The notes under the pieces: generated by a model
The model's input: only the letters and a program-made list of their open reading frames with translations
Database searches by the model: none
What the model was told of the DNA's origin: nothing
Shown here: one piece after another, positions 5,211-11,088 of the stretch
Layout: the number at the start of each line of letters is the position of its first letter
Numbering within the stretch: position 1 is the first letter of the stretch
DNA from: Bacteriovoracaceae bacterium UBA2428
GTDB lineage: Bacteria; Bdellovibrionota; UBA2428
Assembly: GCA_002343545.1 (NCBI GenBank)
Contig: DDRA01000019.1
Location: 456-13,424, forward strand
Direction of reading: 5' to 3'
DNA length: 12,969 nucleotides
Position numbers and translations under genes: made by a program

Positions 5211-5822
5211 CTATTGAACGAGGTCACGAACCTTTTCGCGCCCCAGCGAACGGGCCCGGCGAATATCTTGGAGCTTGGAGGCCGTGAAAGCCGCACGATC
5301 CTTGAGCTTTGCGTTCCGCGCGATTCCCTCGAGCATGAGCTGCTTGGCGTCGTTCAAGAGCTTCGTCGAGATCGCGGCCAAATGATCATGAAGCCCCGCA
5401 TCAGAGCTCGAGACCTGAAGGAGGGTGCGGGCCTGGCCGGGTTTGAACTCGGCGTTGCGGATCTGCTTGTAGGTGCAAAGCTGGCGGATCAGCAGGCGAT
5501 CCATCGGGCTTTCCTCCTGCAGGTTCGGAAACTGGGCCTGAAAGGCCGCGCGCAGTTCGGAAACCGAGAACAAGTTCACGACCGGATCGACGCCGGGGCC
5601 TCGACGGGCCGCCATGGAAGCGATCGTGGACTCGTAGAAGGACAAGAAGCGCGACGTGTCCTGGAACGCCGACTCGCAGCCTTCCGGCATCTGCTCGTCC
5701 TCGAAGGCCAAACCATCGAAGCTCACGACCTTCGTGGCGGCCCCGGCTCGGGGCGCGAGGAGCGAGAGCCCCGCAACGGCAAAAGCGACGAGCGCGGAAG
5801 TGGGAGAAGCAAACTTCGGCAT
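5211..5822 (-). CDS. Orphan secreted protein with Sec signal peptide
   Basis: I do not recognise this 203-residue protein. It starts with a typical Sec signal peptide: short basic start, hydrophobic core at about 10-22, and an AGA motif at 26-28 giving likely cleavage before A29. The mature part is about 175 residues and mainly helical by composition. It has only two cysteines, C49 and C116, so one disulfide in the periplasm is possible. The C-terminus is rich in Lys and Arg. No catalytic motif, repeat or lipobox is seen. The ATG at 5822 lacks a strong ribosome-binding site. It is divergent from the DUF4340-cyclophilin gene across only 56 bases and lies 82 bases upstream of the GYF-like gene on the same strand, so it could head that operon or be transcribed alone. 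Confidence 0.75.
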
Positions 5823-5878
5823 GGAATCAGTTTACCGCACAATTGACTTTTCGCCATTTCGGCTGGATTCAAGGACTT

Positions 5879-7825
5879 ATGGCAAAGCGCAACCCCCTTC
5901 AGCGAAGTCTCCTCCTTTTGACGTTGGCCGCCGCCGCCGTCGGTCTCACTTGGTTCGTGCTCAAGCCCGGCCGCGACAAAGCCGAGGCCGACAAAGACAA
6001 AGCCAGCCTCCTCTACGCCGACCTCGAGCGCCCGAAACTCCTCGAGATCAAGCTCGAAGGCCCCGGGGGCGCCTTCACGATCAAGCGCAAGGCCGACAAG
6101 GCCGAGGAGTGGCTCGTGTCGGAGGGCGCGAAGACCTACGACGCCGATCGCGCCACCGTGGACGGCCTGCTTTCGACGGTGCTCGCCGCGAAAAAAGAAA
6201 ACACCCTCCCCGTCACCGACCTCGCGAGCGTCGGCCTGAACCCGCCCCACCACAAACTCGTTGTCGGCACGGCGAAGGAGCTGCAGCTCGGTTTGGACAC
6301 GCCGGTCGACTACCTCGTCTACGCCAAGTGGTCCGACTCTCCCGAAGTCTTCTTGACCTCGCGCTCGCTGCGCTTCGGGGTCGACAAGAAGCTCTCGGAG
6401 CTCCGTAACCGCAAAGTCTTCGACGCCAAGCTCGAGACCCTCGCCGCCATCGAGGTCCAGAGCGCGGGCTTCGAGAAGACCCTTCCCTACAAACTTCGCT
6501 TCGAGAAGAACGAAGCCGGCGAGTGGAAGCTCGCGGGGCCGAAGCCCCTCAACGTCGAAGTCGCCGAGATCAAGGCTTGGCTCGACGGGCTGAATACGCT
6601 GACCGTGCTGGGCTTCGAGAGCGAAGTGCCGGCCGACCGCGCCAAGCTCGGCTTTGGGCGTCCCGTCGCGACGCTGCGCCTTTTCCAGGGCGACGGCAAA
6701 GCCGCGCCGATCGAATGGCAGCTCGTCGAGAACGTGAAGTGGGAGAACAAGACGAAGACCTCGAAGTTCTTCTTCGCCCGCCTGGACGCCGAGTCGACTT
6801 TTGAGGTCGCCGACACCTACCGCGACAACTTCCGCCTCGACGCGTTCCGCTTCCGCCCGAAGGCCGTGACCGAGATCAACAAGGCCGACGTCACCGCGAT
6901 CACGATCGGCGACGGCAAGGAAACCTTCGACCTCAAGCGGGTCGGCGCGGATTGGAAGATCGGCGACGCGCCGGCCAAGGCCGACGTCGTGAACCGCCTG
7001 CTCGACGGCCTGACGGGCCTCAAGGCCGAAGCCTTCGAGGATAACCTCTCTTCGATCGCGGGCGGTTTCGCGAACCCGACCCGCACCGTCGAGTTCCGCG
7101 GCCAGAAGGACGGCGCCGAAAAGAGTCTCGGACTGCTTGTCTTCGGAGCGAAGCGGGGTCTAGACAAGGTCCTCGTTCGCGCCGTCGGCATGGACGCCCC
7201 CGGCGTGGTGACGCTGAAGCTCGAAGACGTCGTGCCCGCCGGAAGTGCCGCCTACCGCGCGGCGGCTCCCGCGGCCGAAGCCCCGAGCGCCCCGACCCCA
7301 GAGAAAGGAAAACCCGTGAAACTCGAAGCCACCGTCAGCTCCACGAAAGACATCAAGAAGCTCCCCGAAGCGAACCTCAAGCCGAACCACGAGTACACGG
7401 CCGAGATCACGCTCGAGAGCGGCCGCAAGATCAAGATTACCTTCGAAGCGACGAAGTCGCCCTACACCGTCTCGAACTTCGTGCACCTCGCGCGCAACAA
7501 GTTCTACGACGGCGTCAAATTCCACCGCGTCATCAAGGGCTTCATGGCCCAAGGTGGCGACCCCATGGGCACCGGCACCGGCGGCCCGGGCTGGGACTTC
7601 GCCGACGAGAAGAATGACCTTCGCCACGTGCGCGGCGTGCTCTCCATGGCGAACCGCGGCCCGAACACGAACGGCTCGCAGTTCTTCATCGTGACGGACC
7701 CCTCGCATCACCTCGACGGCAAGCACACGATCTTCGGCAAAGTGACCGAGGGCTTGGAAGTCGTCGACGCCGTCAAGCAAGGCGAAGTCATGAAGAGCGT
7801 CGAAATTTTCGAACGCGCCCTTTAG
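5879..7825 (+). CDS. Membrane-anchored DUF4340-type protein fused to cyclophilin PPIase
   Basis: The 648-residue product has an N-terminal membrane anchor at about 10-28, then a long DUF4340-type region. I see three repeat-like units near residues 53-108, 190-250 and 340-390, each with strands, a central WxhxG/W pattern and a closing helix. A Pro/Ala linker (about 461-480) leads to a complete cyclophilin from about 500 to the end. The active-site block [15 protein letters not shown] keeps the catalytic arginine, and [14 protein letters not shown] and [11 protein letters not shown] are intact; histidine replaces the usual tryptophan before LDGKH, as in many bacterial cyclophilins. DUF4340 proteins often accompany GldG-type ABC exporter genes, but none is here. 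With this anchor both domains would face the periplasm. An ATG start with AAGGA nearby is preferred over the TTG at 5843. An internal start at 7316 may release a free PPIase. Confidence 0.88.
7303..7318 (+). promoter_or_regulatory. Internal ribosome-binding site and GTG start for free cyclophilin
   Basis: Inside the linker of the fusion gene the bases GAAAGGAAAACCC run into a GTG at 7316-7318. AGGA is six bases from this GTG, better spaced than the site of the full-length start. The GTG is codon 480 and in frame, so it would give a 169-residue protein (7316-7825) holding the whole cyclophilin domain and no membrane anchor. That is the ordinary size of a stand-alone bacterial cyclophilin. The stretch is also A-rich for this genome. 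Use of this start is inference. Confidence 0.5.
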
Positions 7826-7846
7826 GCCTTTCGAAGGAATTGAGCG

Positions 7847-8398
7847 GTGAGAGTAGAAACGGGCGTCCGGGCCTTGCTTTGGCTCGCGAACGTCGCGCTG
7901 ACCCTGACCTGGCTCGTCGCGTGGGCGATGGGCCGGGTGGCCGCTTCTTTTTCGGCCGAGCTCTCGCCGCTCCGCTTGCACATCGCGATGGGCAGCCTCG
8001 CGACGCTGCTGAGCCTCTTCGCGTCGACCTGCATCCTGTTCTACTTCATCGGTACGGGGCTCTGGATGCGCGACCAGGCCAAAGAAATCGTCGTCCTCGA
8101 CCGCAAGGCGGGGCTCGAAGTCTGGCGTCTCTACGAAGAGGCCAACCGTCTGAAGGCCGGCCCCTTCGCCTTCGCGACCTTCGGCCTTGCCCTCGGGCTC
8201 TTCGGTTACATCCTGGGCGGCGCCACGCACGTCGGCGCCATTCCGCCTTGGGTGCACCCGACGCTCGCGACCTTGCTCGTCGCGAACAACTGGATCGCCC
8301 AGCGCTTCACCTTCCGGAACATGGTCAAAAACGTGGCGTACCTCGACGAAGCCTCGGACCGCCTCGACGCGGCCGAAGCCGCCGCGCGCCCGGGTTAA
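7847..8398 (+). CDS. Small multi-pass membrane protein of unknown function
   Basis: I do not recognise this 183-residue protein. It has hydrophobic helices at about residues 9-29, 45-74 and 106-127, and a weaker fourth near 137-150. A charged loop (about 75-103, with RDQAKE, EEANR) lies between the second and third, and a charged helical tail ends the protein. Histidines sit at membrane edges: H45, H128 and H137. Paired histidines in helices can ligate haem, but there is no recognised cytochrome signature and I make no such call. The GTG start is preceded by AAGGA with eight bases between. It begins 21 bases after the cyclophilin fusion stop and is followed by the ferredoxin gene, so it is probably co-transcribed. 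Its place next to a ferredoxin and DsbD hints at a redox role, which is inference only. Confidence 0.75.
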   Translation: MRVETGVRALLWLANVALTLTWLVAWAMGRVAASFSAELSPLRLHIAMGSLATLLSLFASTCILFYFIGTGLWMRDQAKEIVVLDRKAGLEVWRLYEEANRLKAGPFAFATFGLALGLFGYILGGATHVGAIPPWVHPTLATLLVANNWIAQRFTFRNMVKNVAYLDEASDRLDAAEAAARPG

Positions 8399-8692: not shown

Positions 8693-9364
8693 TTGCTGCC
8701 TTCGAGCCGCTGGATCGTCGTCACCGATTTTGACGGCACTTTGACCGAACAAGACGTCGGGAATGAGCTCTGCAAAGAGTTCATTCCCGATCTTTTTTTG
8801 GAATTGCAGACGGCCTACCGCGCCCAGAAACTTTCCCTCCGCGAGATGCAGCCGCGCATGTGGAGCGACTTCCCCTGCGGCGAGGCGCGTTTCCGCGAGC
8901 GCGCGGCGCAGATCGGCCGCCTGCGTCCGGGCGTCGTCGAATTCCTTCGCCTTTGCCGCGACCGCGAGGTTCCCGTCTACGTGGCGAGCTGCGGACTGCG
9001 CCCCTACATCGAGGCCGTGCTCGACCGCACGTTGCCGGCGGAGCTCCGCGGCGTCGTGCGCGAGATCCGCTGCAACGAGGCGCGCTTCGAAGGCGAGCGT
9101 CTCGCGCGTTTCGAAACGCCCGACGACGATCCGACTTCGCCCTACCCGCTCGATAAGGGCGCATGGTGCCGCGCGCTGCGCGAGCGGCTGGGCGCGCGCG
9201 TGCTCGGCATCGGCAACGGCTCGAGCGATCGCACCTTTCTCGGCCAAAGCGACGAGCTCGCGGCGACCGAAGCGCTCGCGACCTATTTCGAGCGCCAAGG
9301 AGCCGACTTCCGACGTTTCACCGATTTCCGGGACCTGCTCGACGTCCAAGCGCTCCGGGCCTAA
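8693..9364 (+). CDS. HAD-superfamily phosphatase, MtnX-like
   Basis: A 223-residue cytoplasmic HAD hydrolase. Motif I is DFDGT with nucleophile D12 and acid/base D14, motif II is S99 in VASCG, motif III is probably K155 in PLDKG, and motif IV is GNGSSD with D179. The run after motif I (TLTEQDVGNELCKEF) and the SLREMQPRM helix resemble MtnX, the enolase-phosphatase-type enzyme of methionine salvage, and phosphoserine-phosphatase relatives. No other methionine-salvage gene is nearby, so the substrate is open. Motif IV has asparagine (N175) where aspartate is usual, which may alter magnesium binding. The start is taken as TTG 10 bases after the ferredoxin stop because the DFDGT strand needs a start this close; CTG at 8696 is an alternative. 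Tight spacing suggests translational coupling with the ferredoxin. Confidence 0.85.
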   Translation: MLPSSRWIVVTDFDGTLTEQDVGNELCKEFIPDLFLELQTAYRAQKLSLREMQPRMWSDFPCGEARFRERAAQIGRLRPGVVEFLRLCRDREVPVYVASCGLRPYIEAVLDRTLPAELRGVVREIRCNEARFEGERLARFETPDDDPTSPYPLDKGAWCRALRERLGARVLGIGNGSSDRTFLGQSDELAATEALATYFERQGADFRRFTDFRDLLDVQALRA

Positions 9365-9375
9365 GCTCGACCGCG

Positions 9376-11088
9376 GTGAGAGCCTCCTCCGTTGAACGTA
9401 GCCGCCACTTCCTGCTGGGCTTGATCGGCGCCGTCGCGCTTTTCGCCGGGTCGGCCACGGCGCTGGAGCGCCCCCGCGCCGTCACGACCGAAGAAGCTCC
9501 CCGCGAGATCCTGCGCGCCGTTTTGCCTTCGGCCTGGCTCCTGGAAAACCACGTCCGCAGCGAGCTCGACGGCGGCCTCGAGGGGCACCTGCTCGTCGAG
9601 GTCCAGATCCAGACGCGCAACGGGTTTCAGATCTACGAAGACAAAACCTCCTTCTGGTCCGAAGCCGACGAAAACCTCGGGCGGCGACCCTGGGAAGTCG
9701 AGGTCGTCGAGTTTCCGAAGGCCTTCGAGTTCTTCGACCCCATCTCGAAGACGCTCAAACGCGGTTACCGCGGCGAAGCGATCTTCCGTCTCAAGCTCAA
9801 GCTTCCGGAAGGCTCGCGCGGCCGCCTCAACCCCGGCGCGGCCATCCCCCTCGTCGTCGGCTTCCAAGCCTGCAACGATCGGCTTTGCCTTTTTCCGGCG
9901 GCGCTGCGCCTCGACCTTCGCTTGGCCGCGCCGACCCTCGCGCCCGCGGGCTTGCTCGACCGGCTGAACGCGCGGCTCTCGGGCGCGCTCAGCCAAGGCG
10001 GGGAATTCGGCTTCTTCACGATCTTCGCCTTGCTCGTCGCGGGCCTGCTCACGGCCTTCACGCCTTGCGTGTACCCGCTCTACCCCATCACGATCGGAAT
10101 CTTCGGGCGCTGGAGCGCGAAGGCCCACGTGTCGCCGCTGCGCTTGGCCCTCGCCTACTGCGGCGGGCTCACGCTCAGCTACGCCTTGCTCGGGCTCGTC
10201 TCGGCCGCGACGGGCGCCGTCTTCGGGTCGCTCACGCAGAAGCCCGCCTTCCTGATCGGCGTCGGGGTCGTCATCCTTATCTCGGCCGCCGGATTCTCGG
10301 GGCTCTTCGAGTTCACGCCCCCGAGTTGGCTGCTCAAGCTTTTCGGCTCGTCTTCGGACGACGCTCGCCCGTCGAGCCCCGCCGCGCTCACCACGAAGGC
10401 GGCCTTCATGGGCGCGGGCCTCGGCATCGTCGCCGGCCCCTGCGTGGGTCCCGTGCTCGTCGTGCTGCTGGCCTGGCTTTCGACGCGACTGCAAGGCGGC
10501 GGCTCGGCTTACCTGAGCGGCTTCTTCCTGCTTGCCGTCTTCGGGATCGGCATGAGCCTGCCCTTCCTCGCGATCGGGCACCTCATCGTGCGCATGGGCG
10601 GGCGCCCCACGCTCGGGCGCTTCACGCCTTACTTCAAGCACCTCGGCACGGCCCTCATGATCGGCAGCAGCGCGTTCTTCCTCGTCCCCGGACTCAAGCT
10701 CGCCTTCCGCGACGCGCCCGTGCGCGCCGAGCGCCGCTACCCCGTCGCCCACCTGCCGGAATGGACGAAGACCCGCCCGACCGTCATCGACTTCCGCGCG
10801 GACTGGTGCACGGCCTGCTTGCAGCTCGAAGCCGAGACCTACCCCGACGCGGCGGTCTCGGCTTTCTTCGAGGGGGACGCTCCGCGTTTCGATTTCGTCG
10901 AGGTCGACCTGACCGAGACGAGCCCGACCAACGACGAGATCGCGAAGCGCTTTTCCGTGGTGAGCCTCCCGACCGTGCTCTTCGCCCGTCCGGGCGGCGA
11001 GATCTGCGCGACGCTAAGCCTCTTCGGCTTCGAGAACGCCTCAGCGTTCCGCGCGCGGCTGGAACGCGCTGAGCGCGAGTGCCGCTAA
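9376..11088 (+). CDS. dsbD: Thiol:disulfide interchange protein DsbD
   Basis: DsbD carries electrons from cytoplasmic thioredoxin across the inner membrane to periplasmic thiol proteins. The 570-residue product matches E. coli DsbD (565) in size and layout. A signal peptide (about 1-30, ATA before LE) precedes the periplasmic alpha domain with C166 and C171 (CNDRLC). The beta membrane domain follows, with C231 in FTPCVYPLYP and C356 in GPCVGP. The thioredoxin-like gamma domain has C478 and C481 in ADWCTAC. All six working cysteines are therefore present. The GTG start is 11 bases after the HAD stop. A longer reading frame back to 9163 exists but would run through the conserved end of the HAD gene, and the signal peptide begins at the GTG. 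The ribosome-binding site is poor, so coupling to the upstream gene is likely. Its end overlaps the opposing transporter gene by 48 bases. Confidence 0.95.
   Translation: MRASSVERSRHFLLGLIGAVALFAGSATALERPRAVTTEEAPREILRAVLPSAWLLENHVRSELDGGLEGHLLVEVQIQTRNGFQIYEDKTSFWSEADENLGRRPWEVEVVEFPKAFEFFDPISKTLKRGYRGEAIFRLKLKLPEGSRGRLNPGAAIPLVVGFQACNDRLCLFPAALRLDLRLAAPTLAPAGLLDRLNARLSGALSQGGEFGFFTIFALLVAGLLTAFTPCVYPLYPITIGIFGRWSAKAHVSPLRLALAYCGGLTLSYALLGLVSAATGAVFGSLTQKPAFLIGVGVVILISAAGFSGLFEFTPPSWLLKLFGSSSDDARPSSPAALTTKAAFMGAGLGIVAGPCVGPVLVVLLAWLSTRLQGGGSAYLSGFFLLAVFGIGMSLPFLAIGHLIVRMGGRPTLGRFTPYFKHLGTALMIGSSAFFLVPGLKLAFRDAPVRAERRYPVAHLPEWTKTRPTVIDFRADWCTACLQLEAETYPDAAVSAFFEGDAPRFDFVEVDLTETSPTNDEIAKRFSVVSLPTVLFARPGGEICATLSLFGFENASAFRARLERAERECR
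11040..11073. other. Hairpin in the overlap of convergent dsbD and EamA ends
   Basis: CTCAGCGTTCC (11040-11050) pairs with GGAA plus CGCTGAG (11061-11073), giving eleven pairs with a two-base bulge and a ten-base loop. A second, alternative stem GAACGC/GCGTTC (11034-11049) places the transporter stop codon in its loop. Neither is followed by a T-run on either strand, so this is not a classical intrinsic terminator. It may still slow or end convergent transcription, or be a by-product of G+C-rich coding sequence. Confidence 0.35.

Follow-up and report, generated by a model that had tools for sequence, protein, structure and literature searches.

Can one gene supply a cyclophilin to two compartments of the same cell? 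The question is raised by a gene in the DNA analysed here (12,969 nucleotides, henceforth the window, from a genome, G000, that is 74% complete), in which a DUF4340 protein and a cyclophilin are joined in a single reading frame. The first-pass annotation had pointed to an AAGGA followed by an in-frame GTG (codon 480) in the linker between both modules, giving a 169-residue product, and had read this pair either as the source of a PPIase for two compartments or as the old ribosome-binding site of a gene fusion. From sequence comparisons we infer initiation, topology, dual activity and selection, and we consider it very probable that the gene makes two proteins, one anchored and the other a free cytoplasmic cyclophilin, as one case of an arrangement that spans the phylum.

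Table 1. Features of the DUF4340-cyclophilin gene, in window positions.
Feature	Position	Strand	Description or basis
Full-length gene	5879..7825	+	membrane anchor (N-terminal) + DUF4340 + cyclophilin; 648 aa, ATG start
Hydrophobic anchor segment, about residues 10-28	5906..5962	+	sequence; helix 6-43 in AF2 model; topology inferred
Best DUF4340 (PF14238) stretch, residues 216-387	6524..7039	+	domain match
Flexible linker, residues 464-476 with pLDDT <50	7268..7315	+	AF2 model
Internal Shine-Dalgarno (SD) core AAGGA, GTG 6 nt further on	7305..7309	+	sequence; anti-SD duplex -5.6 kcal/mol
Internal in-frame start GTG, codon 480	7316..7318	+	sequence; aligned starts in three relatives
Predicted short product, free 169-aa cyclophilin without export signal	7316..7825	+	sequence, domain match, model order
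Cyclophilin domain PF00160, residues 510-639	7406..7795	+	domain match

The fusion gene and its internal start

The fusion gene ends with a stop at 7823-7825, and the GTG at 7316 is in frame with the ATG at 5879. Both modules score above their curated cut-offs, PF14238 with 103.6 bits in the fusion protein (cut-off 25) and PF00160 with 152 bits in the full protein and 156 in the short form (cut-off 21.7). The cyclophilin motifs FHRVI, FxxQGGD and NGSQFF, which we take to have catalytic roles, are all kept, most of their residues being invariant across 37 aligned rows, and the short form aligns with structure 2mvz. At the other end, two complete orthologues aligned from residue 1 on, and a hydrophobic N-terminal segment is common to those orthologues that are complete there. 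Such an anchor would place the remainder of the fusion beyond the cytoplasm; the long form thus appears to carry an export signal, and the short form, which begins after the hydrophobic N-terminus, appears to have none. An AF2 model built from 32 sequences (mean pLDDT 88.8, pTM 0.60) shows disorder over residues 464-476 and regains order at about 480, so that the short form would begin where the folded module begins. In the proposed mechanism, ribosomes starting at 5879 would produce the membrane-anchored DUF4340 protein, with its cyclophilin held outside the cytoplasm, and those recruited by the SD at 7305-7309 would start at GTG 7316 and yield a free cyclophilin of 169 residues that remains cytoplasmic. 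PPIase activity is predicted for both forms and in both compartments. Separately, the third gene downstream of the fusion (9208-11088) codes for a DsbD-like protein (DsbD_N, DsbD_TM, thioredoxin), another envelope protein-folding factor encoded close by.

The pair described in the first-pass annotation was confirmed at 7303-7318: GAAAGGAAAACCC occupies 7303-7315 and is followed directly by the GTG, with a spacer of 6 nt after the AAGGA core. At the long start of this gene an AAGGA lies as close as 3 nt upstream, and none is evident at the long starts of two relatives, G002 and G001. Taken in one genome, the codon-480 site is unremarkable. Strong internal sites (SD of at least 5 nt, spacing 5-9, ATG or GTG; sampled ORFs of at least 250 aa, overlapping ORFs kept) occur at 0.2-0.4 per 1000 codons (0.28 in G000, i.e. 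27 in 95,209 codons; 0.18 and 0.41 in two relatives), and a second internal GTG at codon 80 (window 6116-6118), with AGGAG at 6 nt, pairs more strongly with the anti-SD (-8.5 vs -5.6 kcal/mol); one genome is therefore insufficient for the claim. The codon-80 site is absent from G001 and G002, and the excess over chance lies in conservation at the aligned position.

Local features of the site were also recorded. Its codons AAA GGA AAA are minority choices in the window gene (GGA for 4 of 54 Gly, AAA for 16 of 62 Lys). Compared with other positions in the same gene, the mRNA near the internal start has little structure, ranking 8 of 609 positions from the least structured in G000, 66 of 628 in G002, 137 of 614 in G001 and 98 of 364 in G003. 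A scan of 5800-7900 for an internal promoter detected no sigma-70-like site, which is a weak test because other promoter types, and the organisms that have them, are outside its reach.

Conservation within the fusion family

Among 59 genomes searched (G000 and 58 relatives) four have the fusion: G000-G003 (completeness 66-94%), the full set of genomes examined from its class. In each it is the only PF00160 match. These four genomes make up the DNA evidence for the fusion, the copy in G003 having its N-terminal side cut off by the end of the contig. No new DNA orthologue was recovered from public genome contigs, which returned only G001 and G002, or from viral contigs. At the aligned place in the linker we found AAAGGAAAACCC-GTG in G000, AAAGGAAAAAAA-GTG in G002 and AAGGAGAAAAAGAAA-ATG in G001, and in G003 AAGG alone, 13 nt before an ATG, without a good SD. 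The start codons of the three relatives (GTG, ATG, ATG) fall at the aligned place or at most two codons away. The internal AGGA and GTG, whose lack of conservation would have spoken against the original proposal, are thus conserved as SD plus start at the DNA level in three of four fusion genes, G003 being weak.

When codons were shuffled synonymously, keeping the protein, an SD of at least 5 nt plus a start arose in 0.78% of shuffles for G000, 9.3% for G002 and 29% for G001; G003, with no SD within spacing 12, counts as a miss. Around the site, the codons of G000 and G002 agree at all seven identical residues, vs 148 of 281 gene-wide (P=0.01), and the remaining five pairs of fusion genes gave no significant result (P 0.05-0.42). 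The codon-level evidence inside the four fusion genes, one of them a miss, is modest.

At the protein level the family is larger, with 36 distinct fusion proteins (37 alignment rows, from which P0082, the protein of G001 itself, is left out). V or M stands at residue 480 in 27 of them; the other nine have K, T or I there and a Met at 479, 481 or 482. A nearby Met accompanies all nine proteins without V or M at 480 vs 2 of the 27 others (Fisher 5.8e-7, uncorrected for relatedness and hence too small, because the rows are related and the nine fall by eye in about five groups). Across these proteins the start-capable residue slides in register and is not lost.

The DUF4340 segment of the family led to no further fusion: it matched in 27 of 368 genomes of the phylum, namely G000-G002 and 24 others, where it lies in frames of 266-505 aa, some of them close to contig ends. 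These stand-alone proteins (family f3 and others) are homologous to the N-terminal module of the fusion, with no cyclophilin fused as far as the frames show. Outside the class, genomes in which the two modules were both found encode them in separate genes, and P0125 is a predicted free cyclophilin of 172 aa that, at the protein level, has the same starting point as the short form of the fusion. Both observations fit the suggestion that the fusion kept an old ribosome-binding site. In passing, five small cyclophilins with a signal or anchor and no DUF4340 (P0126-P0129, P0132) have the fusion's N-terminal extension ('K-M/L-E-x-x-V...KKLE'-like), a start-like Met recurring in P0126 and P0127.

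Exported cyclophilins across the phylum

The same layout is found behind ordinary signal peptides, as AAAGGAG...ATG in G014, AAAAAGGAGTAAAAATG in G042 and AAGAAGGGAAAAGACATG in G047, the last of these in the cyclophilin of Bdellovibrio bacteriovorus (99-100% identity to proteins of that species, including strain Tiberius). The pattern, described in the first-pass annotation for the fusion gene, thus extends to exported cyclophilins across the phylum. Under the explanation proposed here, the cytosol would need a cyclophilin, coming either from a dedicated gene or from internal initiation within the gene for the exported enzyme. In genomes that lack a separate cytosolic gene, an exported cyclophilin's gene would keep the internal SD and start near the beginning of the catalytic domain; where one is present, the exported paralogue would usually be without the site.

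From 341 genomes with PF00160 matches, a first set of 108 was taken (one per genus, mostly at least 90% complete), and the DNA of all its 180 cyclophilins was classified as 134 exported, 36 cytosolic, 6 large other fusions and 4 DUF4340 fusions. A site was defined as an in-frame SD of at least 4 nt at spacing 4-12 plus an ATG or GTG that lies past the signal, between -32 and +1 residues relative to where the domain begins. The thresholds were fixed after a first look and ahead of the formal count (hydrophobicity cut-off changed from 1.9 to 1.6, window -32..+1, domain anchor re-set). Under these rules three genomes had no exported copy. The site was present in 68 of 73 genomes without a separate cytosolic cyclophilin and in 1 of 32 with one (p=3e-20); G338 was assigned to the exported class by hand, and excluding it leaves 67/72. 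Requiring an SD of at least 5 nt gave 53/73 vs 0/32. The difference is repeated within families (without vs with a cytosolic copy: f6 13/13 vs 0/3, f7 2/2 vs 0/10, f8 2/2 vs 0/12, f11 10/11 vs 0/5). An SD is also present at the long start in 46 of the 63 site-bearing exported copies that have a called long start. A second kind of large cyclophilin fusion was seen, with frames of 620-710 aa and an N-terminal part that by eye resembles helical repeats (L070 in G045, L071 in G005, L190 in G055, L208 in G314, L209 in G313 and L288 in G356).

Because the thresholds had followed a first look, the rules were frozen and applied to fresh genomes. This hold-out consisted of 59 further genomes with 88 cyclophilins, picked by match number and family before their sequences were read; five had no exported copy. 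The site was found in 32 of 38 genomes without a cytosolic copy vs 3 of 16 with one (p=8.8e-6). Two hand corrections were made: the cytosolic copy of G089, first classed as exported with a site (a favourable error), was moved, and a contig-edge fragment of G257, first classed as cytosolic, was dropped. The corrected hold-out count is 32/38 vs 2/16, and the corrected pooled count 100/111 vs 3/48 (family-stratified P=5.4e-14). In 23 of the 24 genomes that lack a cytosolic gene and have two or three exported copies, exactly one site was present. With these counts the association between the site and a missing cytosolic gene stands as an observation, as do the sequence and its conservation.

Exceptions do occur. 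In the hold-out, no association is seen within family f7 taken by itself (2/4 vs 1/2), and the site is missing in 11 of the 111 genomes without a cytosolic gene, seven of these assemblies being at least 93% complete (G030, G331, G287, G367, G335, G284 and G322). At the finest scale, in the 12 genomes examined of genus g9, the site was found in all four single-gene genomes and in one (G224, a weak GTG) of the eight that have an exported and a cytosolic gene. In g9, which belongs to Bdellovibrio's family, the exported and cytosolic genes were seen in tandem (L186 in G008, and the g9 loci among L318-L340), with tens of bases separating the domain matches, as if two genes had replaced one gene with two starts.

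Several controls bear on the rules themselves. Over the interval used for the site, an SD plus start out of frame (two frames pooled) was found in 8 of 91 exported proteins without a cytosolic gene and 2 of 48 with one in the first set, and in 1/48 and 0/16 in the hold-out. Anti-SD energy was also taken ahead of the best in-frame ATG or GTG, with no SD threshold. Its median was -5.60 kcal/mol without a cytosolic gene (137 proteins) vs -0.05 with one (64 proteins; p=2e-7), 0.00 out of frame, and -6.85 where cytosolic cyclophilins start (58 rows, including two doubtful ones, G338 and the G257 fragment). The separation is clear yet incomplete, since -4 kcal/mol is reached by 71% of proteins without a cytosolic gene vs 25% with one. 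Seven variants of the rules left the direction unchanged (p between 3e-20 and 4e-13 when an SD was required, 8e-7 for ATG alone). As a control in another protein, FKBPs were read in 20 site-bearing genomes, 19 of which have just one cyclophilin gene. Of the 54 matches, 20 loci were covered, and 19 of these are exported; an SD plus start lay within 32 codons of the FKBP domain in 2 of the 19 exported FKBPs, and anywhere past the signal in 6 of 19.

A tree of 267 domains requires the site to be gained or lost at least 33 times among exported copies. On the starred branches 3-4 of 10 independent pairs were informative, which is too few, almost all agreeing in direction (median p 0.25). Gene sharing has probably been gained and lost repeatedly across the phylum, Bdellovibrio included, alternating with a duplicated cytosolic gene; it appears to persist where a DUF4340 protein of 480 residues replaces the export signal. 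The window gene is the most extreme case seen, its export part being a complete DUF4340 protein.

Alternative readings and known systems

The SD and start might be a fossil, left from a once-free cyclophilin gene when DUF4340 or a signal peptide was placed before it, and now unused. The separate modules outside the class and the starting point of P0125 agree with such an origin. However, a relic should decay, and this one persists in 100 of the 111 genomes that lack a cytosolic gene, over many families, and is absent in 45 of 48 with one; moreover its start codon shifts in register rather than being lost. A relic alone is insufficient, because the exported cyclophilins of the phylum keep the site without a cytosolic gene and rarely with one, and we regard it as very unlikely. 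A little less credible again is a constraint on the protein, by which a K-rich linker and a hydrophobic residue 480 would be conserved for folding, with the SD and start as by-products. The AF2 model shows a short strand at residues 480-481, and V480 could be a structural hydrophobic residue in that strand bridge; Lys-rich linkers easily encode AAGG, and in aligned column 805 AAGG and ATG are common to three of the four fusion genes where the protein is conserved. Folding of the domain would not, however, account for a start that is absent from most exported paralogues when a cytosolic gene exists, for an SD that is encoded by differing residues (K-G, K-E), or for out-of-frame controls as low as 8/91 and 2/48 with anti-SD energies near 0.

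SD-like elements may pause ribosomes, and the element sits just past the export signal or between domains, where a translational pause could aid export or domain folding with no start involved. A pause, however, does not need an in-frame ATG or GTG at SD spacing, and it would be expected regardless of a cytosolic gene, yet the site depends on the absence of that gene; exported FKBPs of site-bearing genomes, with an SD plus start near the domain in 2/19 only, also speak against it. We hold this to be the least probable of the readings, an extremely improbable one. Two products from one gene, supplying a PPIase to two compartments as originally interpreted, is the reading favoured by the conservation of the site and by the phylum-wide association.

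One gene for two compartments has a precedent in the same enzyme family, since a single Neurospora crassa gene gives the mitochondrial and cytosolic forms of cyclophilin. The logic is that of the window gene; the differences are that Neurospora is a eukaryote and the target there is the mitochondrion, and that here the envelope and the cytoplasm would be served by the proposed SD-driven internal initiation. In E. coli the same two compartments are served by two genes rather than one, PpiA being the periplasmic and PpiB the cytoplasmic cyclophilin, and within the phylum such a two-gene layout, the alternative to gene sharing, is seen in most of f7 and f8 and in part of f6 and f11. Internal starts in bacteria have usually been reported gene by gene, in few model species. 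The start described here is a sequence prediction, is conserved across a phylum and is for the most part absent beside a separate gene; its conservation, together with that absence, therefore amounts to comparative evidence for function.

A Salmonella study describes N-terminal proteoform pairs from in-frame starts, among them short forms of PagC and OmpX without the signal peptide, for which its authors suggest a different localisation (PMC11005335). These pairs, like the window gene, have two in-frame starts in one gene; unlike them, the present arrangement is phylum-wide within a single enzyme family and alternates with a separate cytosolic gene. In phage endolysins such as LysTP712, Lys170 and CTP1L, an internal SD and ATG free a C-terminal domain, LysTP712 also having a signal peptide (PMC6832245). 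As in the fusion, a start inside a multidomain gene releases the C-terminal module, which there is a cell-wall-binding domain serving the endolysin and here would be an enzyme for a second compartment. Internal-start proteoform pairs are thus already known (PMC11005335, PMC6832245); among the titles and abstract openings listed by searches of open-access literature, none described an internal cytosolic start in a bacterial cyclophilin or in an exported protein, nor the phylum-wide, exchangeable form. Gene sharing and separate genes form a natural series here, down to one genus. Annotation gives one protein of such a gene and hides the other: in P0360 (Bdellovibrio sp. HCB-162) the annotated start is the internal Met, giving 168 aa, and in P0253 (strain Tiberius) it falls between the two starts, giving 192 aa.
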